A stretch of 64,000 nt of DNA, taken from positions 4,154,001 to 4,218,000 of the forward strand of contig NZ_CP088156.1 of assembly GCF_021088345.1 (NCBI RefSeq), given 5' to 3'. The DNA comes from Bradyrhizobium ontarionense (GTDB taxonomy: Bacteria > Pseudomonadota > Alphaproteobacteria > Rhizobiales > Xanthobacteraceae). The notes below the pieces were generated by a model that worked only from the letters and a program-made list of their open reading frames with translations, was not told the DNA's origin and did no database searches. Position numbers and translations under genes: made by a program. Shown here in pieces: positions 3,315-41,173 of this stretch (its first letter is position 1; each line of letters begins with the position of its first letter).

Positions 3315-3335
3315 AAAATCCCGGGAGGACACGTC

Positions 3336-4361: not shown

Positions 4362-4418
4362 TTTGGCGGGTGCGATCGGCGCGCTGCGCTGACCGCCCAG
4401 GCCGAAAGGATGGCGTTG

Positions 4419-5946: not shown

Positions 5947-5949
5947 GCG

Positions 5950-6673: not shown

Positions 6674-6696
6674 TGGTACAGTTTGGTGGGCTCGAA
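6674..6696 (+). repeat. Left attachment-site repeat (tRNA-His 3' end copy)
   Basis: A 23-bp copy of the tRNA-His 3' end: CCA complement, A73 complement, acceptor arm and T-arm up to the T-loop GAA. It differs from 41151-41173 only at the 11th base (T here, G in the tRNA). It begins TGGTACAGTT. Orientation is the same as in the tRNA copy, as required for attL/attR. Confidence 0.82.
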
Positions 6697-7050
6697 TGAT
6701 GACGACTATGGACGGATCGTAAAGTTGCTCATTCTGACAGCCCAACGCAGGGACGAAGTTGGCGGAATGCGTTGGGCCGAACTCGACTCGTCTAAGCGCG
6801 TTTGGACCATCCCCGGAACCCGCCGAGAGCATGTTTTTGGGGACGACCCGCGCCGGACGGGCGACCAAGAGCGTGGCTTCTTGGATGGTCGAAGTCGAAG
6901 GCCATGCTGGACGCCCGCTTACTCGCCAACCGTCAAGCGATCGCAAGGGCGGGTGAGACGACGACTCCGCTACTGGATTGGTGGCTGCACGATCTACGCC
7001 GCACCGCAGCGACTGTGATGGCCGACCGGCCTGGTGTGCTCCCCCACATC
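6697..7050 (+). pseudogene. Tyrosine integrase fragment, left end
   Basis: Remnant of a phage-type tyrosine recombinase. Frame 1 gives DDDYGRIVKLLILTAQRRDEVGGMRW (about 6697-6774), matching the first catalytic-Arg region of island integrases, with a following strand VWTIPGTR. After frame changes, another frame gives WWLHDLRRTAATVMAD (6976-7023), the H-x-x-R box, then GVLPHI ending near 7050. There is no N-terminal domain and no final Tyr region. The fragment starts immediately after the left attachment repeat, as though its 5' part was removed by a recombination at that site. It cannot be functional. Confidence 0.8.
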
Positions 7051-7234
7051 GGCCGTGGAACATGTCGCGCAGCTTTTCCGGCACGACCTTGCACACGATC
7101 TCGGCCACGCGCTCGCAGAAGGTGACCCGCGCCGTTCGGCATAATGCCGTACCGGATCGGCACGCCCGTAGTCCGAGGTCATATCCTTGGCGCGATCGCG
7201 CGACAGGTGGCGGACAAGACGATCCTGATTGGCC

Positions 7235-7430
7235 ATGCGCGAACCAGACCGTATCATCCGTTTGAAAACCCGTCCTCGCAAGGACCGGGCTGTCCCGGTC
7301 CACCATCTCCCGCGAGATCGCCGAGGGCACGTTCCCGGCTCAGCTCAAAATCAGCACCAACGGGACCAGCTGGCATGAATCCGACATCAACCGGTGGATC
7401 CCAGATCCAGTCGCATGGCGTCCGAACGGA
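7235..7430 (+). pseudogene. AlpA-family regulator, frameshifted
   Basis: A small helix-turn-helix regulator of the AlpA type that controls excision in prophages and islands. The start (ATG 7235) gives MREPDRIIRLKT, then a one-base insertion in the run ACCCG at about 7267-7272 shifts the frame. The remainder reads VLARTGLSRSTISREIAEG and ends with a strand NGTSWHESDINRWI (frame beginning 7272), about 65 residues in all. The second frame stays open to 7718 but the extra residues look non-coding. The shift could be a sequencing error, but decay fits the broken integrases on either side of the island. Between 7051 and 7234 no gene is recognisable. Confidence 0.72.
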
Positions 7431-7701
7431 GTTCGAGGAAGTCCGGTGAGCCCTGTGACTTGTCCTTCCAAGAGGCCGTGGGCCGGGCCGCGGCAGGCCG
7501 CAAAGGCTGGCACGCAGACGATGGCTTTGCCGTCTGATAGGATCAGCCTCGAGAGCATCGATGGCCTGATTGCGCAACTTCAACATTCCGGCGAACATTC
7601 ATCACAGGTTGCAACACATCGCGTTGACACGTTTTATCTTAATAGCTACTTTGTCACACGTTACGAGGCATTCCGTTCAAACCGATTCCGAGGAGGCAGA
7701 C

Positions 7702-7989
7702 GTGGCCAAAGATCCTAAGGACGATGCAAAAGAGCGGGCTTTGGAAGAGCAAAAGGCCTTAGCCAAGGCCCAGTACAAGGACGCAGAAAAGAAAAAGGCG
7801 CTGGCCGAGTACAAGGCCAAGGCCAAGGCCGACTACAAGGCTCAGGCGAAGGCTGAACACAAGGCCAAGGCCAAGGCCGAGCACAAGGCGAAAGCCAAGG
7901 ATGAACAGAAGGCCAAGGCCAAGACCGAGTACAAATTGGTCAACAAGGAAAAGGCTCAACGCGACGCGCTCGCGGCGGGCCGGAGCTGA
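7702..7989 (+). CDS. Lys/Ala-rich low-complexity protein
   Basis: A 95-residue, extremely Lys/Ala-rich protein. Its middle consists of degenerate repeats of about 8-10 residues such as YKAKAKADYKAQ and EHKAKAKAEHKAK. There is no Cys or Pro in the repeat zone, so a long charged helix is expected, as in histone-H1-like or DNA/RNA-binding tails. GTG start at 7702 with AGGAGG 6 bases upstream; the longer ATG form from 7570 adds a segment without coding character. It lies alone between the AlpA remnant and the sbn operon. Function unknown. Repeated AAGGCCAAGGCC stretches in the DNA suggest recent expansion. Confidence 0.62.
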   Translation: MAKDPKDDAKERALEEQKALAKAQYKDAEKKKALAEYKAKAKADYKAQAKAEHKAKAKAEHKAKAKDEQKAKAKTEYKLVNKEKAQRDALAAGRS

Positions 7990-8238
7990 TCGGTGCGATC
8001 GGCGCCACGCTGCACATCACACGCTGCAGAGAAAATGTAGCAAGTTGTTGCAGAACATCGACGTGCGGCGTGGAAATTTGTCGCGCATGTCATCGTGGCG
8101 ATCGGTCGCTGCACTGCATTTCGGCAAAGTCTATTTCGTTGCGACTTCGTTCCACCGGCGCATTTTGTCGGTCGATCGCGTCTAGCTCTGTATTGGCTGC
8201 ATTGTATTGGTTTCAGTGCAGTGGCTTCAGCTACGATG
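7990..8238. other. Intergenic, nothing recognised
   Basis: Convergent space between the Lys/Ala-rich gene and the 3' end of the sbn operon. No hairpin with a T tract, no repeat and no gene was found. Confidence 0.5.
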
Positions 8239-9492
8239 TCATTGCCTGTCTCCGCCGATCGAGATTTCCTGCCACGCATCAGGGGAGATCACCGGCAAAT
8301 TGTCCGGTGCGGGAACCGCCCTCAAATCCTTCAGGCCGGTTCCCGTAGACAGGCAAACGACGCGGTCTTGCGGCGCAATGACGCCGCGCTCCCGCAAGCG
8401 CTCGAAGGCAGCAAATCCCGCCGCACTGGATGGTTCGCAGAACACGCCGAAGCGCGACGCCATCATCCGTGTCGCCGCGACGATCTCGTCGTCATCGACG
8501 GCAACGGCCGTGCCCCTGGACGCCGAGAGCGCCGCCAGCGCCGCGGTCAGATCGCGCGGCTGTGCAACGGTGATGCTGTCCGCAATCGTATGGTGCGGCG
8601 GGTTGTTCGCATGCCTGGCCCATTCCGGATCAAAGCGCCTGGTGATCAGGTCCGAGGCGGCGGACTGGGCGGCGACCAGGCGGGGCATGGAGGACAACAG
8701 ATCCAGCGCGACCAGCTCATGGAAGCCCTTCCATATGCCACTCAGGATATTGCCGTCGCCGGTCGGGACGATCACCCAGTCCGGCGCCTGCCATCCCAGT
8801 TGCTCGGCAATTTCGAACGCACAGGTCTTCTTGCCTTCCCTCGTGAACGGATTGAGCCCGGTGCTGCGATTATAGAGTCCCTTCGCGAGCGAAACCGTCC
8901 GGGCCAGCGCATAGGCATCATCGTAGCTTCCGTCGACGCGATAGATCGAGGCGCCATGGGCCATGATCTGGGTGAGCTTGGCGCCAGGAATGGTGCGCGG
9001 AACCAGCACAGTCACCTTGATGCCGGCGGCAGCCCCGATGCAGGCCAGCGATGCAGCCGCATTCCCGGTCGAGGCCACGATCACATCGGTCACGCCATGC
9101 GCCGCCGCGACCGCAACGACGGCCTCGCTGGCGCGATCCTTGAGCGACCCGCTGGGATTGCGGGCCTCATCCTTCAGGAAGAACCGCGTTCCGCGATAGT
9201 CGCCGAAATCATAGAGCGGGGTCCAGCCGACACCGAGCCGGGTGCCAAAAGCACGATCGACGGGCAGCAGCGGTGCGTAGCGCCAGAGCGACTGCGCGTT
9301 GTCCTCCACGCTCGCCAGCAGGGCCGCACGCGTCGCCGGCTGCAGGTCGCAGCTGACGGACAGGTTCTCCTGCTTCGCGCAATCACACAGGCTGCTGTCC
9401 GGACCGATGTCATGCCATCGCCCACAGCCGACGCAATTCGCCTGTTTCCAACGAAGACGATTGGCGTGACGCGCCCGATCCGGTCCCTGCAT
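8239..9492 (-). CDS. Threonine-synthase-like PLP enzyme
   Basis: A fold-type II PLP enzyme of the threonine synthase group, 417 residues from the ATG at 9492 (a TTG at 9531 overlapping the sbnB stop is an alternative). The PLP lysine is in NPSGSLKDRAS, the phosphate-binding loop in ASTGNAAAS, and a Gly-rich STGTGLKD lies near the C-terminus. An N-terminal zinc-ribbon-like CVGCG...CDC is typical of one threonine synthase subgroup. It is the last gene of a tight operon sbnA-sbnB-this, so it probably acts in non-protein amino acid supply (for example beta-replacement or elimination on phosphoserine/phosphothreonine) rather than housekeeping threonine synthesis. The specific reaction is not deducible. 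Confidence 0.82.
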   Translation of the reverse strand: MQGPDRARHANRLRWKQANCVGCGRWHDIGPDSSLCDCAKQENLSVSCDLQPATRAALLASVEDNAQSLWRYAPLLPVDRAFGTRLGVGWTPLYDFGDYRGTRFFLKDEARNPSGSLKDRASEAVVAVAAAHGVTDVIVASTGNAAASLACIGAAAGIKVTVLVPRTIPGAKLTQIMAHGASIYRVDGSYDDAYALARTVSLAKGLYNRSTGLNPFTREGKKTCAFEIAEQLGWQAPDWVIVPTGDGNILSGIWKGFHELVALDLLSSMPRLVAAQSAASDLITRRFDPEWARHANNPPHHTIADSITVAQPRDLTAALAALSASRGTAVAVDDDEIVAATRMMASRFGVFCEPSSAAGFAAFERLRERGVIAPQDRVVCLSTGTGLKDLRAVPAPDNLPVISPDAWQEISIGGDRQ

Positions 9493-9527
9493 CTCGATCC
9501 GCTCACGACGCCCCTGCGACCTCGTAA

Positions 9528-10529
9528 TCAAGAAACGAAGAAGTCGTCGATCATGCGCGCGCGTCCGCCGGCGACCGCGCGCTCATGCACGAAGTGCGCG
9601 AGTGCAATGTCCAAGACGCCAAGGCCAAACGGAGAAAATATCCGGGCCCGGCTGCGGTCGGGCTGCAGGCGCTCGGAGATCAGGTCACCGATCGTTCCGT
9701 TCACGAAAGACCGCGACCCCGTGCGTTGCTCGGCGAGATGGACCGACGTCTGCGCCTTCAGGCAATGCTCGACATCATCGACGACGTTCTGCGCCGACAG
9801 GATGACGTCGACACCGAGATCGCGCAGCGACACATGGAGCACGGTCTGCTCCGGCGTGAACAGCGCGGGATCGTCGATATAGGGCCTGGCGGCGGTGGTG
9901 GCGAACACCACGAGATCCGCGCCCTCGATCGCATGCCGCGCGCTGGCTGCGGACTCGGCCCGCATTCCTGACTGCTGCAGACTCTCGCAGAGCTCCCGCG
10001 CACGTGCGGCGATCAGATCGTGCACCTGGAACTGCTCCACGCTCCATCCCGTCGCCAGCATGAAGTCGACGATGGTCTTCGCGATCGGACCGGCGCCGAT
10101 GACGGCAACCCGTTCCGCCCGCTTGCCGCGATGCAGGATCCCGGCCGCCAGGGTCGCCGAGGCCGCCGTCCGCGCCGCGCTGATCTGTGATCCCTCGAGG
10201 CACGCATAGGGAAAGCCGGTGGCCATGTCGTTCAGCACAACCACCGCCGAGGCGCGCGCGAGCGGAATGTCCCTGTTCTCCGGAAAGCTTGCGATCCATT
10301 TGATGCCGGCGATGTCGTCCGCGCCGCGCAAGCGTGCGGGCAGTGCGATGATGCGGGCCGTCGGCTTGTCGTCGAACCGCAAGAAATAGCTGTCCGGATT
10401 GGTCGTCCGGGCTGCGTGATGAAGCAAATAGGTATCGCGCACGAGCGCCAGAATCTCGGGCTTGCTCTCCGACAGGATGGCGGAGATCGCCGGGCCGCCG
10501 ATCACGTCGAAGCGCTGTCGCGAGTCCAT
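9528..10529 (-). CDS. sbnB: 2,3-diaminopropionate biosynthesis protein SbnB
   Basis: A 333-residue member of the ornithine cyclodeaminase/mu-crystallin family, SbnB type. Known SbnB oxidatively cleaves N-(1-amino-1-carboxy-2-ethyl)-glutamate with NAD to give L-2,3-diaminopropionate and 2-oxoglutarate. Visible here are the substrate-binding YFLRFDDKPTARIIALPA region, SAARTAASATLAAGIL and the dinucleotide loop VAVIGAGPIAKTI. The ATG immediately follows the sbnA stop codon, with GGGGACG as Shine-Dalgarno inside sbnA. Pairing with sbnA makes the assignment much stronger than the family alone. Confidence 0.92.
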   Translation of the reverse strand: MDSRQRFDVIGGPAISAILSESKPEILALVRDTYLLHHAARTTNPDSYFLRFDDKPTARIIALPARLRGADDIAGIKWIASFPENRDIPLARASAVVVLNDMATGFPYACLEGSQISAARTAASATLAAGILHRGKRAERVAVIGAGPIAKTIVDFMLATGWSVEQFQVHDLIAARARELCESLQQSGMRAESAASARHAIEGADLVVFATTAARPYIDDPALFTPEQTVLHVSLRDLGVDVILSAQNVVDDVEHCLKAQTSVHLAEQRTGSRSFVNGTIGDLISERLQPDRSRARIFSPFGLGVLDIALAHFVHERAVAGGRARMIDDFFVS

Positions 10530-11639
10530 TTACGTCCCCGTCTGCTGCTGCTTCGCCTGATCGCGCCGATAGCTCGCAACCTCCCGACAGCGGTTTGCGA
10601 TGATCGTCACTTCACGGCTGTGCCGCGCCACGATCTCCTTCAATGGCTCGCATGGCAACGGCGCCTGGCCATCATCGGGCATGGTGGCGCCGGTCCCGTA
10701 GGATGACCTGACCCAGTCCGGCGAATAGATGGTATCCATATATTTGTCACCGAGATCGGGAGAGATCGCGACGACGGTGCTATCGGCGTCGAAGAATGCT
10801 GCATCGGCGGCGATTGCCGCCAGCACCGAGCCGGTCGATCCGCCCAGAAGCAGCCCCTGCCGCCGCGCCAGGCGATGGCACATCCTGATGGCATCGATTT
10901 CGGGGACGTAGACAATGCGGTCCAGAAGCTCGGGATCGGCCAGCTCCGGCCGCCGGCTGGTCCCGATCCCCGGGATCAGCCGCCGTCCCTTCCGGTTCGG
11001 ATCGAACGTCACCGATCCTTCCGGCTCGACCGCCACCACCATCGTGTCAGGCGAGAGCTCGGCAAAACGCCTTGCCAGTCCCATGACCGTTCCGGTCGTA
11101 CCGGAGCCGACATAGAGATGGCTCACCTCCGGAATCTCATCGAGGATTTCGAGCGCCGTCCATTCCTCGTGCGCGCGCGCGTTGAACTCATTGGCGTATT
11201 GATTCAGCCAGACATAGTCGCTGTTGTCTCGCAGGAGATCGCGGATGCATGTGATCCGCGTCTCCAGATAGCCGCCATTGGCGTCCTTGGAATCGACGAT
11301 GATCGTACGGCCACCATAGGCCTCGATGCTGCGCAGGTTGACCGCGGAGACATTGGGATCCGTCACGCAGATGAACGCGTATCCGCGCAAGCTGCAGATC
11401 AGCGCGAGCGCGATGCCGAGATTCCCGGAAGATGACTCGATGATGGTCGAGCGATGCGGCTCGATCAGTCCCCGCCGCTCCAGCTCCGCGATCATGAACA
11501 GAGCGGGTTTGATCTTGATTGATCCGGTGACGTTATAGCCTTCCATCTTCAGAACCACGCGGCCCCTGTCGACCAGTCCGGGAAGTTCGAAGAAGAGATT
11601 CTGTACCAGCAGATCAAGTGGATTGGTGAGGATCGACAT
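10530..11639 (-). CDS. sbnA: 2,3-diaminopropionate biosynthesis protein SbnA
   Basis: A 369-residue PLP enzyme of the cysteine synthase family. Known SbnA joins O-phospho-L-serine and glutamate to make the SbnB substrate. The PLP lysine is in NVTGSIKIKPA, the phosphate loop in SSGNLGIALA, and the Gly-rich GSGTTGTVMG and GGSTGSV are present. The ATG at 11639 is preceded by GTGGAAG; a GTG at 11669 would add ten residues without a ribosome site. It is the first gene of the sbnA-sbnB-PLP enzyme operon and diverges from the luciferase-like monooxygenase gene. The predicted product matches the diamino-acid-like code of the first NRPS module of the island. Confidence 0.93.
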   Translation of the reverse strand: MSILTNPLDLLVQNLFFELPGLVDRGRVVLKMEGYNVTGSIKIKPALFMIAELERRGLIEPHRSTIIESSSGNLGIALALICSLRGYAFICVTDPNVSAVNLRSIEAYGGRTIIVDSKDANGGYLETRITCIRDLLRDNSDYVWLNQYANEFNARAHEEWTALEILDEIPEVSHLYVGSGTTGTVMGLARRFAELSPDTMVVAVEPEGSVTFDPNRKGRRLIPGIGTSRRPELADPELLDRIVYVPEIDAIRMCHRLARRQGLLLGGSTGSVLAAIAADAAFFDADSTVVAISPDLGDKYMDTIYSPDWVRSSYGTGATMPDDGQAPLPCEPLKEIVARHSREVTIIANRCREVASYRRDQAKQQQTGT

Positions 11640-11662
11640 GCTTCCACTATTCACTCTGATTC

Positions 11663-11693
11663 GAGACACGTTGAACTTTGAGACACGTTGAAC
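11663..11693 (+). repeat. 14-bp tandem direct repeat upstream of sbnA
   Basis: GAGACACGTTGAAC occurs at 11663-11676 and again, identical, at 11680-11693, centre to centre 17 bp. It lies just upstream of the sbnA ATG. It could be a pair of regulator half-sites or leader structure; function unknown. Confidence 0.7.
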
Positions 11694-11832
11694 GCGGCAA
11701 ATCCCCGGCCGTTAAAGCCTCGCGCAGAGGCGGCCTCCCCTCAGCCTTCACTGAAACAAATCTGAATTGAAACAAGCCCGAACGCCTATGCCACCAATCA
11801 ACTTCGCAGCACAACTTCACAAAAGTATTGCA

Positions 11833-11846
11833 TTGTTCAATAACAA
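11833..11846. promoter_or_regulatory. Candidate Crp/Fnr-type operator
   Basis: TTGTTCAATAACAA is a perfect TTGTT-N4-AACAA palindrome and also fits TTG-N8-CAA, the general form of Fnr/FixK/Nnr boxes. It is inside the AT-rich divergent promoter of sbnA and the luciferase-like monooxygenase gene. In AT-rich DNA such a match can arise by chance. Confidence 0.4.
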
Positions 11847-12164
11847 CGTAAAGATGTATTTATGTAATTTGCTCAGCGTACGCGACGCAGGATGTCGCAA
11901 CGATGTTTCGATCGCCTGCATTCGAACACGGCGGCCGGCGTAGCTTCACGTACGTTGCAGCTGCCGGTCGCGAACCGTCACTCATTGGAAATTCAAGTCA
12001 ACGCGCAGCAATGCGCATTGCCAAACAACCTGAAATAGACAATTTTGACAATTTGCAATTATCTACAAGATCAACCACCGGCAACCGGCACACGTGCGTT
12101 TCGTCCGCTTTTCCCACTGTTGCTCTTCTGACGTTCTGTTTCTCTCACCCGATGGTCGTTGACA

Positions 12165-13232
12165 ATGAAGTTCTCATTGTTCTTCGAGATGCAGGTCCCC
12201 GACCCGACGCCGGACAGGGAAGTCGCGGTCTTCCGCAATTGCGTCGAGCAGGCGAAGCTCGCCGATGAACTCGGCTATCATTGCATCTGGGGGGTCGAGC
12301 ATCACGGCCTGTATGAATATTCGCACTCGTCGGCACCGGAGATCTTCCTGGCCTACGTTGCAGCGCAGACCAAGCGGATCCGCATCGGCCATGGCTGCAC
12401 GCTGCTGCCCCATCGCTACAATCATCCGATCAGGATCGCCGAGCGCATCGCGACCCTCGACATCCTCTCGCAGGGGCGCGTGAACTGGGGAACGGCGAAA
12501 TCCGGCACCAGGGTCGAGCGCGAGGCCTTCGAGATCGACGCGGACAGTCTTCACGCGCAGTGGCGCGAGGCCGTCGAAATGATCCCGCGGATGTGGGAAA
12601 CGGATGTCTTCAGCCACAAGGGGCGCTTCTTCGACATTCCACCGACCTGCATCGTCCCCAAGCCGGTGCAGAAGCCGCACCCTCCGATCTTCGCGGCCTG
12701 CTCGAAGCCCGAGCAGGCGGTGGAGGTGGGCGAGCTCGGTCTCGGCGCCCTCAACCTGGCGATCTATCAGGACGAGATGCTGGCAAAAAGGGTGTCGGCG
12801 TATCGCGCGGCAATGGCCCGGGCGAAGCCGCTCGGCCGGCAGCTCAACAATCATTTTGCCTGCAATCCGGCTACGCTGGTTCTCAAGGATGACCGCAGGG
12901 CCTGCCAGTACGGCTTCCGGGGCGCGCTCTTCTTCCTGAAAGCCATGGTGCATTACTACGGCGTCAACAGGCCCGTCGGCAGGATCAACATCTCCAGGGA
13001 CTTTCTTCCCGACGATCAGCTGCAGCGCTTCATGGATCAGCGCAACACGCCGCAGTCGCAGCTTTCCTCGATCATCGGCGATCCCAGCTCCGCGCGGGAG
13101 ATGGTCCAGCGCTTCGTCGATGTTGGAGTCGACGAGCTGATTCTGGTGATGCAGACCGGGACCACGCCCCACGAGATTACAATGGAGTCGATACGCACCT
13201 TCGGCGAGGAGGTGATGCCGCAATTCTCCTAG
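12165..13232 (+). CDS. Luciferase-like flavin monooxygenase
   Basis: A 355-residue LLM-class flavin-dependent oxidoreductase (TIM-barrel, uses FMNH2 supplied by a reductase). Family marks: MKFSLFFEMQ start, GVEHHGLYEYSHSSAPEIFLAYVAAQTKRIRIG in the N-terminal third, HPIRIAERIATLDILSQGRVNWG and KPVQKPHPPIFAA. The ATG at 12165 matches the usual family start MKFSLF; no clear Shine-Dalgarno is seen. It faces the AsnB-like gene on the same strand 99 bp on. Proteins of this class are frequent tailoring enzymes of NRPS clusters; here it could hydroxylate an amine or carbon of a building block or of the product. Confidence 0.88.
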   Translation: MKFSLFFEMQVPDPTPDREVAVFRNCVEQAKLADELGYHCIWGVEHHGLYEYSHSSAPEIFLAYVAAQTKRIRIGHGCTLLPHRYNHPIRIAERIATLDILSQGRVNWGTAKSGTRVEREAFEIDADSLHAQWREAVEMIPRMWETDVFSHKGRFFDIPPTCIVPKPVQKPHPPIFAACSKPEQAVEVGELGLGALNLAIYQDEMLAKRVSAYRAAMARAKPLGRQLNNHFACNPATLVLKDDRRACQYGFRGALFFLKAMVHYYGVNRPVGRINISRDFLPDDQLQRFMDQRNTPQSQLSSIIGDPSSAREMVQRFVDVGVDELILVMQTGTTPHEITMESIRTFGEEVMPQFS

Positions 13233-13331
13233 GCATCTCCCCTGGCGCCGGCTCGGACCGATGGACACTGAACTGAACTGCAAGGTTGGAATCGCGGCGG
13301 CGTCGACGTCGCGGCTATTGGGCTCACGACA

Positions 13332-15197
13332 TTGTGCGGAATCTGCGGAATCTTCCGGATATCAGGCGACCAGCGCGTCTCGTCCGACGTCATCGAGGCG
13401 ATGACGCAGACGCTTGCCCATCGCGGCCCTGACGATCGCGGGCATTTCGTCAGGGACGGCGTCGGGCTGGGCTTTCGCCGGCTGAGCATCATCGACCTGT
13501 TCACCGGCAACCAGCCGCTGGCCAACGAGGATCAGACCATTTTCCTCGTATGCAATGGCGAGATTTTCAATCACCGCCAGCTTCGCGAGGAGATGATCGC
13601 GAGGGGACACCGCTTCCGCTCCCAGACCGATGTCGAAGTGCTGATCCATCTCTATGAGGAGCTGGGCGACGATTTTCTCGGCCGGCTCAACGGGCAGTTC
13701 GCCTTCATGCTGTTCGACAGCGTCCGCAACCGGCTGTTCGGCGCACGCGACCAGTTCGGAGTCGCGCCGCTGTTCTATGCGACGATCGGGCGCGACTTCG
13801 TGTTCGGCTCCGAGATCAAGGCCATCCTGGCTCATCCGGGGATCGAACGCCGGGTGGATCTCACCGGCCTCGACCAGGTGCTCTCGCTGCCCGGCCTGGT
13901 CAGTCCACGAACCATGTTCGCGGGCGTGAGCAGCCTGCCGCCGGGCCATTGCATCACCGTAAACCAGCACGGGGTCAGCACCGCCCCGTTCTGGGACCTG
14001 CGTTTCCCGCGCGAAAGCGAGGGCCACGAACAGCGGACAGAGGCGTCCTACCGAGAGGAGATCGAGCATTGCCTGGTCAAATCCGTCCGCCGGCGCCTCC
14101 AGGCGGATGTCCCGGTCGGCGCCTATCTGAGCGGCGGGCTGGACTCCTCGCTGGTCACCAGCATCATGCAGGCCAATGTCCCCGACCCGGTACGGACCTT
14201 CTCGATCGCCTTCGAGCAGCAGTTGATCGACGAGCGGCAGTATCAGCGCATCGCCGCCCGCGAGTTCGGCTGCCGGCATCACGAGGTCGAACTCGACGTT
14301 ACCGCAATCGAAAGCCGGCTGCGCACCGCGATCTGGCACGCCGAATGTCCGTTGAAGGAAACCTACAATACCGCGTCGCTGGTGTTGTCTGCCGCGGCGC
14401 GGGCGCATGGCGTGCCGGTCGTGCTCAGCGGCGAGGGGGCCGACGAGCTGTTTGCCGGCTATCTCGGCTATCGCTTCGACGCCTTTCGCCGCGCGCGCGG
14501 CGTCCAGAGGCCGACTGCGGCGAAGGAGGCCGAGCTGCGATGCCGCGTATTCGGCGATGCCACCATCTTCTACGAGAAGAACCTGACGGATATCGAGGCT
14601 GCAAAACTGGCGCTGTATTCGCCTGCGCTCGGAGCGCTGTTTCCGGAGTTCGACTTCACCAGGTCCGATGTGATCGACACCAGCCGGATCAAGGACATCC
14701 ACCCGCTGCACCAGCGCTCCTATCTGGACATGAAACTCCGGCTCGGCGACCATCTGGTCGGCGATCACGGCGATCGCATGCTGATGGCGAACGGGGTCGA
14801 GGGCCGGTTTCCGTTTCTCGACATCGAAGTCGCCGAACTGGCCTGCCGGATCCCGCCGGACCTGAAATTGCAAAGCTATCAGGAGAAATACATCCTGAAG
14901 GAGGTGGCGCGGAAATACGTGCCGCAAGTGATCGTCGAACGCGAAAAATACGGCTTCAACGCGCCTGGGACGCCGTTCCTGCTGCGCAGTGGCGTCGAAT
15001 GGGTCGAGCAATTGCTGTCGCCCGAGACGATCCGGCGGCAGGGCTATTTCGACCCGGGTGCGATCGCCGAACTGAAGCAGCGCTACGCCCAGCCCGACTT
15101 TCAGCTCAACGTGCCGACCGAGGACGATGTGCTCATGACCGTATTGACCTTCGGACTGTTTCTCGAGGCCTTCGACATGCCCGATCTCGGCTCATGA
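13332..15197 (+). CDS. Glutamine-dependent asparagine synthetase homologue
   Basis: A 621-residue AsnB-type amidotransferase. The N-terminal class II glutaminase begins MCGICGIF, whose Cys2 is the nucleophile. Because the Cys must follow the initiator, the TTG at 13332 is the start even though it is a rare codon. The synthetase domain has the PP-loop YLSGGLDSSLV (about residue 270) and GEGADELFAGY (about 370). Both halves look intact, so it should make an amide (or release NH3) with ATP and glutamine. Inside this island it is more likely to amidate a pathway intermediate or a carboxyl group than to supply asparagine. It precedes the kinase gene by 58 bp. Confidence 0.9.
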   Translation: MCGICGIFRISGDQRVSSDVIEAMTQTLAHRGPDDRGHFVRDGVGLGFRRLSIIDLFTGNQPLANEDQTIFLVCNGEIFNHRQLREEMIARGHRFRSQTDVEVLIHLYEELGDDFLGRLNGQFAFMLFDSVRNRLFGARDQFGVAPLFYATIGRDFVFGSEIKAILAHPGIERRVDLTGLDQVLSLPGLVSPRTMFAGVSSLPPGHCITVNQHGVSTAPFWDLRFPRESEGHEQRTEASYREEIEHCLVKSVRRRLQADVPVGAYLSGGLDSSLVTSIMQANVPDPVRTFSIAFEQQLIDERQYQRIAAREFGCRHHEVELDVTAIESRLRTAIWHAECPLKETYNTASLVLSAAARAHGVPVVLSGEGADELFAGYLGYRFDAFRRARGVQRPTAAKEAELRCRVFGDATIFYEKNLTDIEAAKLALYSPALGALFPEFDFTRSDVIDTSRIKDIHPLHQRSYLDMKLRLGDHLVGDHGDRMLMANGVEGRFPFLDIEVAELACRIPPDLKLQSYQEKYILKEVARKYVPQVIVEREKYGFNAPGTPFLLRSGVEWVEQLLSPETIRRQGYFDPGAIAELKQRYAQPDFQLNVPTEDDVLMTVLTFGLFLEAFDMPDLGS

Positions 15198-15255
15198 AAC
15201 ATTCGGCTCAAGAATAACTCCTCGCTCACCAGCCGAGCGACGACCGGAGATATGA

Positions 15256-15891
15256 ATGGACAAGCGACAGGCGGCCGCGGTGGCAAAGCAAGATGATCCG
15301 AGCCTGGTCATTGCCGTCAGCGGCACCTCGGGTGCCGGGAAGTCGAGCGTCATTGCGACCACGGCCGAGATGCTGATGGGCGCTGCGCGGCTGCATTTCG
15401 ACGACTATGTGACGCTCGGCAACGACATTGCGCAGATACGGGCGTGGATCGATGCGGGGGCCGATCCCGACGAGATCAAGACACCCGTGATGGCGGTCGA
15501 TCTGCGCAACCTGATTTCCGGCAAGCCGGTGCAGCCGCCGAATGGCGGCAGCATCGTCCATCCGGCCAACTACATCATGATCGAGGAGCCGTTCGGACGC
15601 GCCCGGCAAGAACTCGCCGGCCTGATCGATCTCACTGTCTATATCGACGTCCCTCCCGAAGTCGCCCTCGCCCGCAGGATCGTCCGCGAAATCGCATCGC
15701 CGCAGAAGCAGGCCGCCCAGCTGGTCGGAGAGATCGAAGGCCAGCTGCTGGCATTTCTTGCAATCGGCCGCGACGCCTATCTGGCCGCCGCGCGCGCCGC
15801 CCGGGACTCCGCCGACCTTCTGCTCGACGGCATGCTGCCGGTCGACGAACTCGCCGCCAGCATCGTCGAAGAGGTTCGCCGCCGCAGCTGA
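15256..15891 (+). CDS. P-loop kinase, uridine-kinase-like
   Basis: A 211-residue P-loop NTPase with Walker A GTSGAGKSS at about residues 24-32, a following HFDDYV that resembles the Walker-B/DD of uridine or pantothenate kinases, and a lid region ARRIVREIA near residue 140. ATG at 15256 with GGAG upstream. It is in line with the AsnB-like gene. The substrate is unknown. Phosphorylation of an amino acid or alcohol precursor would make chemical sense beside SbnA, which uses phosphoserine, but this is a guess. Confidence 0.75.
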   Translation: MDKRQAAAVAKQDDPSLVIAVSGTSGAGKSSVIATTAEMLMGAARLHFDDYVTLGNDIAQIRAWIDAGADPDEIKTPVMAVDLRNLISGKPVQPPNGGSIVHPANYIMIEEPFGRARQELAGLIDLTVYIDVPPEVALARRIVREIASPQKQAAQLVGEIEGQLLAFLAIGRDAYLAAARAARDSADLLLDGMLPVDELAASIVEEVRRRS

Positions 15892-15990
15892 ACGTCGCCC
15901 CCAGCACAAGACGTATTGCGTTGCAAAACAACTCATTCAGTATTGATCATCCAGCGGAGGCCGGGACATTTCGACATGACGGGAGAACCG

Positions 15991-18326: not shown

Positions 18327-18419
18327 GTTTTCACCCCTCGCCGTTTCCATGCCGGAATACAATCGGTCCATCGCATCGATGTCGCCATCATGGTCCGGGC
18401 CGGATGACCGGCCCGGCAA

Positions 18420-31730: not shown

Positions 31731-31757
31731 CTACGCTCTCCGGCAACCTGAAGGGCT

Positions 31758-35189: not shown

Positions 35190-35194
35190 GCCCG

Positions 35195-38100
35195 TCAATC
35201 GGCTTTGGGAAACTGGGCCAGCAGCGAAGTCAGTTCGTCGGGGCTAAGCTGATCGACCTGGGCCAGAAGGGCGATGTCGCTCTCGATCGGCGCGCGCCCG
35301 TCAATCTTCAACGCAGGGGAATCACCGAAGCGAATGTGCGGGCGCGCATCACCGTTGCGGGACAGCAGGCCAGCGAGATGATTCGCCATCTCGCCAAGCC
35401 TCGGGGTGTCCCATATCAGCGTGGGCGGCAATTCCAGGCCGAGCCATTCTTCCAATGCATTGATCAGCATGACGGCCCTGACCGAATCCATCCCGAAATC
35501 GCCGAAGCGATCCGCGGGCGCGATCCCCGCGGCTGGAATTTCAAAGGCCTGAGCCATCCAATTGGCCAGCCATGCGTTGATCTCGCGAATCCTGTCGGCG
35601 TTGGCGCCGCCCTCCGCAGCGATGCCGTGCGCGGCCTGCGGCTGCGGATCCGCACCTGCATCATGCCGCCGGCCAGGCGATGTTGGCGCGTCGCGCGATG
35701 CGTCGGACTCGATGCGGTGAGCTGCCGTCTGCGCGGCGTGCCGCCCGATCAGGACGTCGCGGTCGGACTGCTCGCCCGGCATGCTCTGCTCGATGTCGCC
35801 GATGGTCTCGACATAGCCAGCGACCAGCCGCTCGGCCTCCGCGGCGTCGAGCAGCGCCACTTCGGCCGGACTGGTGCCGAGCGCGCGCGCAAGCCGCTGA
35901 TCGAAGCGCAGACGCGCCCAATCCTCGGCGCGACGCAACAGCGGACCAGGCGCAAGCCTGCTGCGGGATCTGACGCAGGCAAGCAGGATACCGAGGGTTC
36001 CGACGTCACCCGTCAGATGATAGGCCCAGTTCATCGCCGCCGACTGATCCGCAAAACGGCTTCCCGGTGCCTTGCACCGCTCGACAATCCGGCCGGCGGC
36101 GACTTCGATCTCCGCGGCCAGCGTCGGCTGCTGCAGCTCGTCCCCGATCAGCTGGCGCAGCTCCCTGGGATTGTGAACCAGGCGAGAGCCGATATGCATG
36201 ATCATCGCTTCGGTCGGCCCCTCGAAGATCCGAAGTATTCGCGTATCGCGCAGGATCTGCGGCGCCAGATTGGTCTCGATGTAACCGCGGCCGGCAAGCT
36301 GCTGGACGAGATGATCGGCGGCACGCCATGCATATTCAGGTCCCGCGACCTTGCAGGCACAGAACAGCTCGGCCGGCACCGGCAGATTGTCGTCGAGCCT
36401 GTTGGCGACAAGGCCGATCAGCGCGTCGAGCGCGGTTGCGGCTGCAGTCAGGTCGCTGATCCGCGTCATCGTCACCGGATTCGCGCTCAGCTTGCCGGTG
36501 ACGATGGAGCGGCGGCCAGCGTGCCGTACCATCAGCTGCAGACAGCGCTTGATGACGCCGACGCTCATGGCCGCGACGCTGAACCTGCCGAATTCCATGG
36601 TGTCCATGGCGCAAATCATGCCGTCGCCGAGTCCGCCAAGCATGTCGTCGGCCGAGACCCGCACGCCTTCCAGCCTGACTTCATTCTGGACCATGCCGCG
36701 CAGGCCCATGGTCAAGGCCTCGGGTCCCATGCGCAGGCCGGCGCTACCCTGCCGGACCATGAAGCCGGTGATGCCCTGGCCTCGACCTGGCTCGCCGCCC
36801 TCGACCCTGACGAAGGTGTTGATGACGCCGGACCATGCGGCCGAACCACTCCAGATCTTGGTGCCCCAGAGATGCCAGCCGTCCTGGCCGTCAGGCCGAC
36901 CCTGCGCGCGGATGCCGCGCACGTTCGATCCGGCCTCCGGCTCGGTCATCGCGAAAGCCGCAAGCTGCCGGCCGGTGGCGAGACCGGGCAGCAGCTCTTC
37001 GCGCTGCCTGGCATTACCGTAACGCTGGATCGGCCGGATACCCAGGCAGTTGTTGACGGCGACGAATGAAGCAAGCGTGAGATCGATCGCGGCCAGCTGC
37101 TCGAGTATCAGCGCGAACTGACGATTGTTCAGCGCCAGCCCGCCATAGCGTTTGGGGACCTGCAGGCCGAGCACGCCGTGATTGCCAAGGTCCAGCACGA
37201 CATGTGGCGCGATGGAACGGCGTTCATCCATGAGACGGGAATTGATCCGCTCGTCAGCATAGTTGCGCAGCCAGTTGGTCAATTCCCTGACCTGGTCGGT
37301 GCCGCGATCCCCATGGCCGAGATCGTCGCGAACGCTGGAATCAGATTTAAGGAGGCCGCGGTCTTTGACGACAAGCATTGGCTCCCCCTGATGAGACGAA
37401 TCCGTAAAGGCCTCGATGGAGTTCACCGCGAGCGTGACGGCATCGGCCGTGCCGGAAGCCGTCAGGGCTTCCCGCAGCTTCGTCGTTGTCCATTTGGTCA
37501 GGTTCGGCAGCGTTCCATCGAGAAATGCCTGCCGGCAGGCGCTGCGTTTTTTCTTGCCGCTATGCGTCCTTGGCAGCCCGCGCGGCCGCAGCAGCAGCAC
37601 CGCCGCGACTTCGATCCCATAGCCCTCGAACACCGCCCGCAGGATCGACCGCACCACGCGATCGCTTTCGAGTTCGCGCATCGCCTGCCGCTGGATTTCG
37701 TGCACGATCACCAGCCGCGTCTCGCCGCCGATGTCGATCGCGACGGCGGCGCCGCCGCCCGGCTGCAGCGCCGGATCGCTGGCCTCAATCGTAGCTTCGA
37801 TGTCCTCTGCGCTGTGGTTGGCGCCGCGAACGACGATCAGGTCATCCATCCTGCCGAGCACGAAAAGCTCGCCGTCGTCCATCGCACCGAGATCGCCGGT
37901 GCGCAGGAAGGGGCCGTCATGCGTGCCCGCCAGGGTCGCGGCGAATTTCTGCGCGGACGCCTCGGGGCGTTGCCAATAACCCGACGCCACGCCCGGTCCG
38001 GCAAGCCAGATCTCCCCGATCTGGCCCGGACCGCAACGAACGCGCGAGGCCGGATCGGCGATCACGATTTGCGTTCTGGAATTCGCGCGACCGGAGCCGA

Positions 38101-39208
38101 CGAACAGCCTGCTGCGCTGCTCTCCGCCCGCCACCTCGAACAGACCTTCCGCGAGACGGTCCGTCCTGATCGCGCGAATCTCGGGGGGACGACCGGGACC
38201 GCAAGCCGTCGCCACCAGCGTCGCCTCGGCCAGCCCGTAGCCCGGACACATCGCATCGGCCGAGAAGCCATAGGGCTCGAAGCGGCGAATGAACGCCTCG
38301 ATCGTATCGGCTCGCACGGGCTCGGCGCCATTGATCGCGACCCGCCAGCTTGTCAGATCCAGCCCTTCGAGCTGATCCGGCGGAATCGCCAGGCAGTTCT
38401 GATAGCCGAAATTGGGCGCCGCGCTGTGGGTGATCCGATGCCGCGAAATCGCCTGCAGCCAAAGCAGTGGCCGCTGCGCGAACATGGCCGGCGGCATCGC
38501 GAATGCCGTGCAGCCGGCGTAGATCGGTTGGATGCAGCCGAAGATCAGGCCGAGATCGTGAAAATGCGGCAGCCATGACAGGATCCGGCTGTCCGGCTCG
38601 ACCGCGAAGTGGCCACGAAAATCGGCCGAGTTCGCCATGATGTGCCGGTGGCAGATGACCACGCCTTTCGGGGCAGCCGTCGAGCCCGACGTGTATTGCA
38701 GGTATGCGACATCGTCGCTGCCGCTGGCGGGATCTTTCCAGTCGTCTGCGCACGCGAGATCGATATCCGCTGCGATCAGCCATCGCACCGCATTGAGTTC
38801 ACGCGCGAGAAGCGGTTGCAGCTCGGCCGTCGTCAGCCCGATCGCGGCGCCGGAATCGACGACGATGTTCTTCAGATATTCGATCGATTGCCTGGCGCTG
38901 GGATAGCGGGTCGGTATCGCGACGACGCCCGCATAGAGGCAACCGAAAAAGCCGGCGAGAAATTCGGGTCCTGCCGGAAATACGACGAGCGCGGTCCGCC
39001 GAGGCCGATGCGCTTCATCGGCAATGATTTCTTCGTCGGCTCCGGCCTGCTGCAGTTGGACGGCGATCGCGCAGGCCTCGCGGTCAAGGCGCTCGTAGGA
39101 AACATGTCTGTCACCACGGCCACCACCGATGAACGTGCAGACGTTCCGTTCCGGGTTGGCGGCGGCCGCCGCCCGGAGCATCGAGACTATGGTGATCCCG
39201 TCACGCAA
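35195..39208 (-). CDS. Loading protein: fatty acyl-AMP ligase, acyl-CoA dehydrogenase, ACP
   Basis: A three-domain fusion of about 1337 residues. A fatty acyl-AMP ligase (about 1-580; LQYTSGSTAAPKGVV, SWLPHFHDLGLIFG, GYGLAEATLV) activates a fatty acid. An acyl-CoA dehydrogenase (about 640-1090; FAMTEPEAGSN, GTKIWSGSA, RIFEGPTEAM) should introduce an alpha,beta double bond. An ACP (DFGMDSVRAV, near 1235) carries the chain to the first condensation domain. Start is uncertain: TTG 39208 (MRDGITIVSMLRA) puts the start where family homology begins and has a GGGGGG nine bases before; ATG 39181 would cut into it, and TTG 39337 adds an Arg-rich stretch without coding character. The stop is within 6 bp of the next NRPS start. 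Confidence 0.9.
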   Translation of the reverse strand: MRDGITIVSMLRAAAAANPERNVCTFIGGGRGDRHVSYERLDREACAIAVQLQQAGADEEIIADEAHRPRRTALVVFPAGPEFLAGFFGCLYAGVVAIPTRYPSARQSIEYLKNIVVDSGAAIGLTTAELQPLLARELNAVRWLIAADIDLACADDWKDPASGSDDVAYLQYTSGSTAAPKGVVICHRHIMANSADFRGHFAVEPDSRILSWLPHFHDLGLIFGCIQPIYAGCTAFAMPPAMFAQRPLLWLQAISRHRITHSAAPNFGYQNCLAIPPDQLEGLDLTSWRVAINGAEPVRADTIEAFIRRFEPYGFSADAMCPGYGLAEATLVATACGPGRPPEIRAIRTDRLAEGLFEVAGGEQRSRLFVGSGRANSRTQIVIADPASRVRCGPGQIGEIWLAGPGVASGYWQRPEASAQKFAATLAGTHDGPFLRTGDLGAMDDGELFVLGRMDDLIVVRGANHSAEDIEATIEASDPALQPGGGAAVAIDIGGETRLVIVHEIQRQAMRELESDRVVRSILRAVFEGYGIEVAAVLLLRPRGLPRTHSGKKKRSACRQAFLDGTLPNLTKWTTTKLREALTASGTADAVTLAVNSIEAFTDSSHQGEPMLVVKDRGLLKSDSSVRDDLGHGDRGTDQVRELTNWLRNYADERINSRLMDERRSIAPHVVLDLGNHGVLGLQVPKRYGGLALNNRQFALILEQLAAIDLTLASFVAVNNCLGIRPIQRYGNARQREELLPGLATGRQLAAFAMTEPEAGSNVRGIRAQGRPDGQDGWHLWGTKIWSGSAAWSGVINTFVRVEGGEPGRGQGITGFMVRQGSAGLRMGPEALTMGLRGMVQNEVRLEGVRVSADDMLGGLGDGMICAMDTMEFGRFSVAAMSVGVIKRCLQLMVRHAGRRSIVTGKLSANPVTMTRISDLTAAATALDALIGLVANRLDDNLPVPAELFCACKVAGPEYAWRAADHLVQQLAGRGYIETNLAPQILRDTRILRIFEGPTEAMIMHIGSRLVHNPRELRQLIGDELQQPTLAAEIEVAAGRIVERCKAPGSRFADQSAAMNWAYHLTGDVGTLGILLACVRSRSRLAPGPLLRRAEDWARLRFDQRLARALGTSPAEVALLDAAEAERLVAGYVETIGDIEQSMPGEQSDRDVLIGRHAAQTAAHRIESDASRDAPTSPGRRHDAGADPQPQAAHGIAAEGGANADRIREINAWLANWMAQAFEIPAAGIAPADRFGDFGMDSVRAVMLINALEEWLGLELPPTLIWDTPRLGEMANHLAGLLSRNGDARPHIRFGDSPALKIDGRAPIESDIALLAQVDQLSPDELTSLLAQFPKAD

Positions 39209-39326
39209 GTGAGGACACCCCCCGCGCCATCGGCGCAATGAAATTCGTGGCGGATTTCTCCACCGTGGCGATCGCTGGAAATGCGTTCTTTCACCGATGC
39301 AAAGTGACCGCGACCCTGCGGCGGAG

Positions 39327-39527
39327 TCACCTGCCAATGCTTAGGGGACGCATGTCGCGCCAGACTTCGGCAATGTAGTTAAGGCAATCGTCCCGGTAAC
39401 CCGACTTGCCGGCCTCACGCCAACCTGTCGGAGGTTTCTGCTCGACGGGCCAGATCGAGTATTGCTCTTCCTCATTCACAACGACTTTCAAGAGCCCGTC
39501 CTGCCAATCCGACTGTGCTTTGGCCAT
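39327..39527 (-). CDS. MbtH-like NRPS accessory protein
   Basis: A 66-residue MbtH-like protein, which binds adenylation domains and is needed for their folding or activity. The family signature is plain: [17 protein letters not shown], then [17 protein letters not shown]. The ATG at 39527 gives [13 protein letters not shown]; the longer frame upstream has no support. It is the first gene of the minus-strand assembly-line operon, 118 bp ahead of the loading-protein start. Confidence 0.93.
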
Positions 39528-40040
39528 TTCAACTTGTCCGCCCGGAATTCGCGCTCCCCGAGAATAATTTAAAGTCTCTATCGAAACTTGAATCAAGTCA
39601 ACTTTAAGATGTAATTTTTGCCGACGCATTGAAGTCTTGTCCGCCGGAGTGACAGAGATCCGCCAGCGTACCTCCCGTCCGTATCGGGGCCGCATGCTTC
39701 CTCATTTCCGGGACGCGCGTGGCGCATTGCGTTGCGGGACACAGCGCGCCGGATTCAACAAACCTCCGATCGGGTTTTCGTTTGCCGATCGATCGGCGTG
39801 TTATTGTTCGAGACAGATGCAAAGATCTATCGGTGAGTTCGCGCCGGCCGACGCACGCATGGGCTGCGGCGACGGCCTTCATCAGACAGAGCCGAGATCG
39901 CCCAGCACCGACGCACGACGGCGTCAAACGTCGTTACACCGATCGACAGCGAGATCAGCGGCAACCGAAGGCAAGCCTCGATGGCAGACGCCCGCACCGA
40001 AAGGCGCCGTGGCTGGCCGCTCGCGCGACCGATCAGACAT
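39528..40040. other. Non-coding, between NRPS operon and integrase remnant
   Basis: Apart from the AT-rich promoter segment near 39565-39625, I see no gene. Short frames on both strands lack ribosome sites and family resemblance. The part from 39640 on is probably decayed mobile DNA linked to the integrase pseudogene. Confidence 0.5.
39573..39601 (-). promoter_or_regulatory. Possible promoter and palindromic operator before mbtH-like gene
   Basis: On the minus strand TTGACT (39601-39596) is followed after 17 bp by GAGACT (39578-39573), a good -35 and poor -10. The spacer contains a perfect 6-1-6 palindrome ACTTGA-A-TCAAGT at 39586-39598. The surrounding 39565-39625 is AT-rich, unlike the genes on either side. 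The position about 50-75 bp upstream of the first gene of the NRPS operon fits an operator overlapping a promoter. No regulator gene is visible in the island. Confidence 0.4.
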
Positions 40041-41065
40041 TTAAACGGCTGCGACAGCTGAGCTCGAATGCCTCGCCTGCGGCGAAGCCGGACGCCGGTC
40101 GGCACGACACTGCTCCACGCGGCGTGGGACAAGCCGGCTGATCCGACGCGGTGGGAGCTGGGGAATTGGCAGGTGGAGGACGGCGCGCTTGGACTCTAAA
40201 CCCACAGGCTCCAGGGACTCTTTCAAGCGCGGGCCAGCCTGGAAATTCGCGTGGCGGAGAGAGTGTCCGCGCCCGCGAATGTAATTGCCAATCCATTTCG
40301 AATGCTTAGCCGCGCCTGGGCGCCAGCTGCCCATTGGGCCACGCCCATCCGAACGCGCCGGCTTGAAAGGACCAGCACTTGCAGCCTGCGGCGGCGTGTC
40401 ATTGTAGAAAAGCGCCCCGGCGCCAACTTGCTTCACCACAGCAAGCAAGTCTTGGGCGATGAGGTGCTCGTGAAGAGGCACGACGCGCGCCTTTCGTGTC
40501 TTCACCGTGCCCGCCTCAGGCGTAAGCCGCATCACATACAAGCCGTCTCGGGCTTCTATGTCGCTGGCCCCGAGCTGCGTAATCTCACTTGGCCGCGCAC
40601 CCCGAGTAGGCACATAGCCAAGCCACCCACCGGCGCGCCCTATGGGTCGGGGTGGTCGGCTTAGCGTAGCCAGGCTGGCATTCAGGACCATCCGCACTTC
40701 GGCATCCGTGAACGACCTTCCCTCCTCTCGTGTCTCGACCTTCCGGGGCACGTCCGCCTTGATCTCGGCGAATGGGTTCTGACGGAGGCGCTTGTGCTCT
40801 TTGGCCCACTCAAACACACGCCTCGATGCCGAGAGCCAGATTTCACGGACCGTGAGCGCGCTTCTACGAGTTTCAACCTCGGCCAACCCTTCGCCGTGCT
40901 TAGTCTGGGCGACCGCCTTGGGTGTCCCGGCCGAGATGCGGAGCTGCGCTTCCCAACGAACGCCGTACAGCCCGCGTACTCGTCCCGCACGTCCTCCGGA
41001 ATGCCCCTACGAGCTACCCGATCACCATTCTTCGCGGTAATTAGTCCGACCATCCGCAACGCCAT
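40041..41065 (-). pseudogene. Tyrosine integrase, frameshifted, next to tRNA-His
   Basis: Phage-type integrase in pieces. The N-terminus reads MALRMVGLITAKNGDRVARR (from 41065), and after a frame change the body reads ALTVREIWLSASRRVFEWAK, FTDAEVRMVLNA and the first catalytic-Arg region TRGARPSEITQL. A basic strand TVKTRKARVVPLHEHLI is present. Beyond that the H-x-x-R box and catalytic Tyr cannot be found; the residues after about 40330 are unlike the family. It starts 86 bp from the tRNA-His 3' end, the usual place for the integrase of an element that uses that tRNA, so it is probably the one that inserted this island. Confidence 0.85.
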
Positions 41066-41150
41066 TTGTACCCCTTTTTGAATTTTAGGGCGCGCAAATA
41101 CGTCAGGTCTATCAGCAAGTTACTGGAGAGGCGGGAGTTTTCCACTGCTG

Positions 41151-41173
41151 TGGTACAGTTGGGTGGGCTCGAA
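41151..41173 (-). repeat. Right attachment-site repeat (tRNA-His 3' end)
   Basis: The 3' 23 bases of the tRNA-His gene (CCA through the T-loop), matching 6674-6696 at 22 of 23 positions in the same orientation. Marks the right junction of the island. Confidence 0.82.

Follow-up and report, generated by a model that had tools for sequence, protein, structure and literature searches.

A probable decayed tRNA-His island in Bradyrhizobium ontarionense and its predicted FAAL-initiated lipopeptide gene cluster

What is the 34.5-kb segment of the Bradyrhizobium ontarionense chromosome that lies between a tRNA-His gene and a second copy of that gene's 3′ end, and does it still have what a mobile element or a biosynthetic pathway needs? 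We have examined this segment within a window of 64,000 nucleotides (contig NZ_CP088156.1, positions 4,154,001 to 4,218,000; positions below are those of the window, with negative values lying to its left). The original prediction, made from the DNA letters alone, saw in it a self-contained biosynthetic island of an uncommon kind. Our analysis suggests, with a probability of roughly 0.8, that it is a decayed and immobile tRNA-His island, which stands beside a separate accessory block (block M) and whose cargo is a member of a conserved alphaproteobacterial family of nonribosomal peptide synthetase–polyketide synthase (NRPS-PKS) clusters. Judged by its sequence, it is an ordinary fixed island whose completeness is doubtful, and it shares a frequently used insertion site with a second, adjacent acquisition.

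The boundaries of the segment are defined by the following features:
41151–41227, minus strand: intact tRNA-His (GTG) gene, identified by ARAGORN, with the attachment site at its 3′ end (attL side)
41151–41173, plus strand: 23-bp repeat, tRNA-proximal copy
6674–6696, plus strand: distal copy of the 23-bp repeat (22/23), which we interpret as the scar of a deletion, the shortened attachment (att) core being fused at GGGCTCGA to an integrase remnant, int2

The tRNA-His gene is the only tRNA gene that ARAGORN finds in the window, and the 3′ 23 bp of the gene recur with one mismatch and in the same orientation at the distal edge, 34,477 bp away, as originally described. An intact tRNA with the island downstream is the arrangement produced by insertion into a tRNA 3′ end. 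It could be argued that the repeat is a chance similarity and that the cluster was inserted in some other way, and we note that the final 8 bp of the left copy can be accounted for by int2 sequence. However, no match with three or fewer mismatches appears in 100 dinucleotide-preserving shuffles of the window; a two-letter form of the pattern, with up to two mismatches allowed, matches this pair only in the whole chromosome (8,435,845 bp; zero matches to the reversed-pattern control), making it the sole such pair in the 8.44-Mb genome; and the remnant of an integrase is in place on the tRNA-His side. We find such an explanation barely credible, and a chance origin of the repeat is rejected on the shuffles and the genome-wide uniqueness. 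About 1.5 kb at each island edge is without an identifiable intact gene, and the decayed left edge includes a short ORF stretch at 7760–7935 (ORF, open reading frame) with many 12-bp repeats of the AEYKA/KAKA type.

Integrase remains were predicted at both ends, and two pseudogenes are indeed present; their tyrosine recombinase Pfam matches are weak (E 0.0096 and 0.014), but the comparison with intact relatives is clear:
40323–41065, minus strand: int1 pseudogene, what is left of a tRNA-His tyrosine recombinase of 541 aa
6689–7050, plus strand: int2 pseudogene, residues 218–363 of a 424-aa recombinase, in two frames

The int1 remnant retains residues 1–31, 33–71 (in another frame) and 287–470 of 541, and comparison with the 541-aa relative located neither residues 72–286 nor residues 471–541 in the island; the ORF at 40041–40886 matches this ~541-aa integrase of other genomes of the genus. 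Intact relatives of int2 are 406–424 aa long, and neither its N-terminal nor its C-terminal part was found in the island. A search with int1 gave matches in 83 of 195 genus genomes, and among the 16 strongest outside the own genome (E ≤1.5e-55) all save one lie within ~4 kb of tRNA-His, its 23-mer or a phasin gene. Seven of these are 927–941 bp from tRNA-His or the 23-mer by coordinates (genomes G002, G109, G180, G061, G011, G080 and G099), five others are near tRNA-His, its 23-mer or phasin (G048, G149, G063, G049 and G161, the last at ~3.7 kb), and three are placed by the adjoining phasin gene (G162, G147 and G106, among the matches listed); the remaining one is at a contig end in G058. The island thus has a tRNA-adjacent recombinase gene of matching specificity, as a pseudogene, and the intact relatives in G002 and G061 start 85–86 bp from tRNA-His, just as the remnant does here (41065 versus 41151). 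For int2, a similar stretch is present 841–933 bp from a repeat copy in seven genomes (G049, G080, G071, G044 and G058, and weakly in G026 and G053), and the gene starts ~170 bp from the repeat copy in G049 and ~150 bp from it in G178.

The left repeat is unusual in its length. In 17 of 17 other repeat copies aligned (15 picked from the matches listed, together with loci L122 and L125) the match to the tRNA extends over 45–56 bp, compared with 23 bp in the distal copy here, where the att core directly abuts the int2 remnant. The last 8 bases of this copy, GGGCTCGA, recur in G178 within the left-end integrase coding sequence; there the int2 gene reads ACAGGGCTCGAGGACGACGATTACGG where the own genome reads TGGTGGGCTCGAATGATGACGACTATGG. 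Because GGGCTCGA is also int2 sequence in G178, the securely att-derived part of the left repeat amounts to ~14–15 bp plus the shared stretch. On the simplest reading, the two copies of GGGCTCGA, one in the att core and one in int2, would be the endpoints of a deletion that produced the scar.

From the anatomy and the relatives it is clear that the island was inserted into tRNA-His and that an att-core copy marks its distal end; a site-specific recombinase acting at the tRNA 3′ end would have left it there. Later, the tRNA-side integrase would have lost its middle and C-terminus, and a deletion through the 8 bp of shared sequence would have joined the distal att site to the central part of the second integrase gene, in the same event shortening the att match from ~45 bp to 23 bp. 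This suggests a route to the fixation of tRNA islands, in which both integrases are lost and an apparent deletion via 8 bp common to the att site and an integrase gene leaves a shortened repeat; it also recommends caution with short direct repeats at island edges, which may be scars instead of original att cores. The working integrase and two full att sites of a mobile integrative and conjugative or mobilizable element (ICE or IME) are not present, both integrases being truncated, and no relaxase or conjugation genes were seen among the island genes scanned in general domain scans, which took in only part of the small ORFs. With both integrases and one att site damaged a circular form is unlikely, and excision would not be expected.

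We note that in L125 (G049:C494, 1754–4873) and in G080 (C6, ~10145–12630) int1 and int2 diverge from a repeat copy, as would be seen where two tRNA-His elements are joined in tandem. The segment could likewise be a collapsed tandem, composed of a distal element with int2 and a tRNA-side element with int1, in which the middle att copy has been lost and the cluster derives from one element only. The repeat copy at those junctions in G080 and G049 has a tRNA match that stops at 48–49 bp, and as many as 4 repeat copies occur in a single genome, but a 158-kb region of the own genome contains no third copy at six or fewer mismatches, save a 17/23 match inside a synthase gene. We regard a collapsed tandem as quite possible, although at distinctly less than even odds, and we prefer a single decayed island.

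If that island was a simple insertion between its repeats, an empty site in a relative should join the sequence left of 6674 directly to tRNA-His, as the original prediction proposed. This expectation fails. G166, one of the two best flank matches (among the matches listed; matches of at least 150 bp or at least 100 bp were reported in these flank comparisons), is without the element at tRNA-His; its core DNA starts ~240 bp past the tRNA gene and is collinear with the own genome to window position −9835 (blastn) or ~−9739 (local alignment), and the counterpart thus ends at ~−9739 and not at 6673. Since the G166 core joins at about −9.7 kb, the total insertion in the own genome is ~51 kb, from ~−9.7 kb to 41150. 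The distal flank in G166 differs, block M being absent at that site too. Distances from tRNA-His to the first core match in other relatives are ~3.9 kb (G065), ~7 kb (G160) and ~27 kb (G175), and G178 has no core match within 37 kb of tRNA-His. One feature accounts for much of the additional DNA within the window:
1–6393, plus strand: right-hand part of block M, a di-iron monooxygenase operon, outside the repeat-bounded element

Block M extends from about −9595 to 6389 (~16 kb) and contains genes for a P450, phosphoenolpyruvate-synthase-like halves, an aldehyde dehydrogenase and a short-chain dehydrogenase/reductase, as well as the di-iron monooxygenase operon. It is present as a single block in G166, G160 and G065, with 87–90% identity and nearly equal ends, and the contexts in these three genomes have no other match above 300 bp in common in the 53–56 kb compared (matches of at least 300 bp being reported here); among the matches listed, the monooxygenase operon is distant by 474 kb in G166 and by 2.2 Mb in G160, and in G065 it is on a different contig. 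The same ends in three unlike contexts mark block M as a separate accessory block. We propose that this independently acquired 16-kb monooxygenase block came to adjoin the island at the tRNA-His hotspot, the two together forming the 51-kb insertion. One could alternatively view block M and the lipopeptide cluster as a single 51-kb island, with the repeat at 6674 merely an internal relic, and the nearly empty G166 site, which is without either part, is consistent with this. However, block M with nearly the same ends is found at three unrelated places in relatives, the cluster is absent from those block M stretches save for short synthase-domain matches, and no repeat copy is present near the outer edge at −9.7 kb at six or fewer mismatches; a single 51-kb island is therefore quite improbable, and we retain two neighbouring acquisitions. 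That four genomes carry block M at differing positions (next to tRNA-Gln in the case of G065) gives the impression of a unit that moves as a whole; in the part of the block that was scanned, no recombinase gene was noticed. Between block M and the repeat there are two degenerate tRNA-Arg 3′ halves arranged tail to tail (6395–6435, CCG type, plus strand; 6429–6477, ACG type, minus strand), perhaps relics of other tRNA-targeting elements.

How unusual is an insertion at this place? At least two copies of the tRNA-His 23-mer (with no more than one mismatch) are present in 53 of 195 genus genomes, the own genome included (counted by eye), with zero matches to a reversed-pattern control throughout, and same-strand pairs on one contig, 6.8–131 kb apart, occur in 11 other genomes among the matches listed (G014, G158, G010, G053, G025, G107, G058, G047, G165, G178 and G125). 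Two repeat copies alone do not prove an island, and the count concerns repeats and not cargo, but rarity of repeat-bounded insertions at tRNA-His is rejected, and with it the description of the arrangement as uncommon; biosynthetic islands at this tRNA may still be rare. An excerpt of one report (PMC9239051) describes part of a Bradyrhizobium symbiosis ICE, with an intH gene, integrated beside tRNA-His; the tRNA gene used for integration is the same as here, and the cargo in that excerpt comprises nif/fix genes.

The cargo between the repeats is, as anticipated, an NRPS-PKS assembly line with precursor and tailoring genes, as confirmed by domain searches and, for the modules, by motif reading. 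From 39.7 kb the assembly-line genes are ordered along the minus strand as follows:
39327–39695, minus strand: MbtH-like protein (PF03621, E 2.6e-18)
35195–39337, minus strand: loading enzyme FAAL-ACAD-PCP, 1380 aa
31758–35198, minus strand: C-A-PCP, A-domain code DVWQVTTDD
27354–31730, minus strand: C-A-MT-PCP, code DASTVAAVC, with a PRMT-like methyltransferase (MT) within the A domain
22609–27357, minus strand: PKS module KS-AT-KR-ACP
18420–22616, minus strand: C-A-PCP-TE, code DVRHFALLA, with a release thioesterase (TE)

All five synthase genes, and the accessory genes as well, have uninterrupted reading frames. The FAAL part of the loading enzyme matches solved FAALs and its ACAD part solved acyl-CoA dehydrogenases, the methyltransferase inserted in the second A domain is similar to protein arginine methyltransferases, and the KS, AT, KR and ACP motifs of the PKS module are kept. 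With a FAAL and carrier, C-A-PCP and KS-AT modules and a terminal TE, the cluster has the composition of a FAAL-initiated NRPS-PKS lipopeptide cluster, and domain and curated-family matches support both the four elongation modules and the sbnAB precursor genes that had been predicted. The A-domain codes comprise nine positions that were read by motif and alignment and without a trained predictor; the reading excludes the lysine at the tenth position. Between the assembly line and the distal repeat are the precursor and tailoring genes:
16203–18419, minus strand: PF04185 phosphoesterase, 738 aa
15256–15891, plus strand: P-loop kinase, PRK08233/uridine-kinase-like, kept in three related clusters
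13332–15197, plus strand: asparagine-synthase-like (AsnB-like) amidotransferase, TIGR01536 above cut-off, kept in three related clusters
12159–13232, plus strand: luciferase-like monooxygenase (PF00296)
10530–11669, minus strand: SbnA (TIGR03945, 356.1 versus cut-off 349.95)
9528–10529, minus strand: SbnB (TIGR03944, 399 versus cut-off 326.9)
8239–9531, minus strand: threonine-synthase-like (ThrC-like) PLP enzyme (TIGR00260, 176.7 versus cut-off 167.1), kept in three related clusters

Both SbnA and SbnB exceed their curated cut-offs, as expected of a 2,3-diaminopropionate pathway; the threonine-synthase-like enzyme is below the cut-off of 303 of its best match, NF006050. We regard the long ORFs opposite the monooxygenase (12174–13283, with no Pfam match) and opposite the kinase (15226–15936, with no Pfam or NCBIfam match) as overlapping frames. 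No homologue of the phosphoesterase or of the luciferase-like monooxygenase was found in the stretches of the three related clusters, and because none was found there for the phosphoesterase, the idea that phosphoesterase and kinase form a resistance pair is left as speculation.

We have searched for relatives of the cluster in several ways. In 146 genomes of the genus, with four candidates scored per genome, there is no full-length FAAL-ACAD-PCP in the other 145 among the matches listed, which are confined to either the FAAL or the ACAD part, and in a search of 398 genomes of the phylum (two candidates each, E ≤1e-100) near-full matches are found only in the own genome and in G482 (39%). A scan of genome contigs with the single protein returned 10 stretches, none of them a relative, and among plasmid records the best place is below 60% identity in every record (at most 43% among the matches listed), without yielding a source for the whole cluster. 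A profile scan of genome contigs gave the best 80 of 138 relatives, many of them cyanobacteria; the kinase, AsnB, ThrC and SbnA genes occur together at three of the 80 loci, in Azospirillum sp. 412522, Phaeobacter sp. 11ANDIMAR09 and Pseudophaeobacter leonis, and locus L231 has AsnB alone of the accessory genes (35%). Because many of the 80 loci are short, more members of the cluster may exist.

The wider stretches of the three related clusters contain five synthases in the same order, SbnB and the terminal C-A-PCP-TE, with protein identities to the island genes of 54–72% in Azospirillum and 41–58% in Phaeobacter and Pseudophaeobacter. The three A-domain codes are identical across the four clusters (12 of 12 domains), and this identity, despite the divergence in sequence, points to selection for the same amino acids. 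The Azospirillum sp. 412522 cluster (NZ_RWIJ01000014.1; L160, L246, L247) resembles the island in its MbtH, SbnA, SbnB, ThrC-like, AsnB-like and kinase genes, but differs from it in having 3-hydroxyacyl-CoA dehydrogenase, stand-alone acyl-CoA dehydrogenase and synthetase-like genes adjoining the kinase; the monooxygenase and phosphoesterase were not found there, and no tRNA gene is present in the 38 kb examined. The Phaeobacter (L163/L248/L249) and Pseudophaeobacter leonis (L179/L250/L251) clusters share the SbnA, SbnB, ThrC-like, AsnB-like and kinase genes with the island, although several synthase genes of the P. leonis draft are split over frames; they differ in having the same extra trio, a phosphopantetheinyl transferase (PPTase) and a PF01663 phosphodiesterase, and MbtH was not detected in them. 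The phosphodiesterase of these two roseobacters is downstream of the TE gene and has no detected similarity to the island phosphoesterase. Cyanobacterial and Burkholderia FAAL-ACAD-PCP enzymes are more distant, with the same domain order over most of the protein and 36–41% identity (three aligned), but their downstream genes are unlike those of the island in the three loci inspected. A search of open-licence papers by title and abstract yielded no description of the cluster or its chemistry among the matches listed, and the term acyl-CoA dehydrogenase is not found in an excerpt of a FAAL review (PMC11837247); the cluster family is apparently undescribed, such a negative being weak evidence. 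It represents a strongly conserved, predicted lipopeptide scaffold that links soil and marine alphaproteobacteria, and the cluster offers a defined gene set for deletion and comparison.

The trio next to the kinase in all three related clusters bears directly on whether the pathway is complete. It consists of a 3-hydroxyacyl-CoA dehydrogenase, a stand-alone acyl-CoA dehydrogenase and a class-II-tRNA-synthetase-like protein, and none of these was found in the window, save for the fused ACAD domain of the loading enzyme. Supply of the trio in trans was considered and rejected, because the best matches in the own genome are only 33% identical to the synthetase-like protein and 40% to the stand-alone acyl-CoA dehydrogenase, the 3-hydroxyacyl-CoA dehydrogenase lying outside this whole-genome search. 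Dehydrogenase pairs of this sort are known from the formation of aminomalonyl- and hydroxymalonyl-ACP, and a modified amino acid or an extender unit may therefore be what the trio provides. The synthetase-like proteins (L247, 15534–16697; L250, 8188–9369; L248, 8180–9358) resemble class II tRNA synthetases only weakly (Pfam E 0.067 and 0.24) and are possibly carrier-protein ligases. With three genes of all three related clusters missing, and no PPTase among the island genes scanned, the view that the pathway is self-contained is doubtful.

Several points weigh against our overall reading. The left repeat is short and is in part accounted for by int2 sequence; GGGCTCGA is present in the int2 gene of G178 but absent from those of G049, G071, G044, G004 and G074, so that the deletion mechanism depends on G178, the sole close alignment over that stretch; and int1 and int2 may have separate origins in two tandem elements instead of a single one. 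In the cargo, the first condensation domain has the motif PHIVSDL, in which the first His of HHxxxDG is replaced, the A1 and A3 codes, as read by motif, matched no known substrate, and without the trio the pathway may no longer function or may give a different product. If loss of the trio stopped the pathway, the cluster would be a dead relic, and its presence in 3 of 3 related clusters with only the low own-genome identities given above is in keeping with this; yet the uninterrupted synthase and accessory genes, the retention of most of the catalytic motifs read, and codes equal to those of the relatives make a dead relic unlikely. We tentatively propose, at somewhat under even odds, that the four clusters (from the own genus, Azospirillum and the marine roseobacters) form an undescribed lipopeptide family with all three specificity pockets fixed, and that the island has exchanged the trio for the luciferase-type monooxygenase and the phosphoesterase, yielding a differently tailored congener.

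What might the product be? Domain order and its conservation are directly observed, and the substrates, chemistry and product that follow are predictions from them. The FAAL would activate a fatty acid and load it onto the PCP, and the fused ACAD would probably introduce an α,β double bond. A1 would then add residue 1, followed by a tyrosine, probably O-methylated by the inserted methyltransferase; the PKS module would add one unit, presumably malonate, that is ketoreduced, and A3 would add residue 3 prior to TE release. SbnA and SbnB should supply 2,3-diaminopropionate for A1 or A3, and the ThrC-like, AsnB-like and kinase genes constitute a conserved accessory set. The likely product is thus a fatty-acyl (possibly α,β-unsaturated)–residue 1–O-methyl-tyrosine–reduced malonate–residue 3 chain, with 2,3-diaminopropionate as residue 1 or 3.

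The prediction of O-methyl-tyrosine as residue 2 draws on the code DASTVAAVC, which we take to be tyrosine-like, and on the similarity of the methyltransferase to that of a C-A-MT-PCP module on plasmid pNsp_c of Nostoc sp. ATCC 53789. The Nostoc module has the same domain order, its MT is 46% identical over 371 aa, and its code is DASTIAGIG as against DASTVAAVC in the island; the module alone was compared, the pathway being otherwise different. This strain is presumably a cryptophycin producer, and cryptophycin contains O-methyl-tyrosine. Excerpts of two papers (PMC4558948, PMC9229328) treat another module of the cryptophycin pathway; for the Nostoc module compared here, O-methyl-tyrosine would be the presumed residue.

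Elsewhere in the B. ontarionense genome there are three further FAAL domains (C1:108288–110000, 6683092–6684597 and 7717069–7718637), in very long open frames of 3296, 4437 and 2190 aa respectively; the first of these frames is similar in length to frames in many members of the genus (about 3250–3350 aa).

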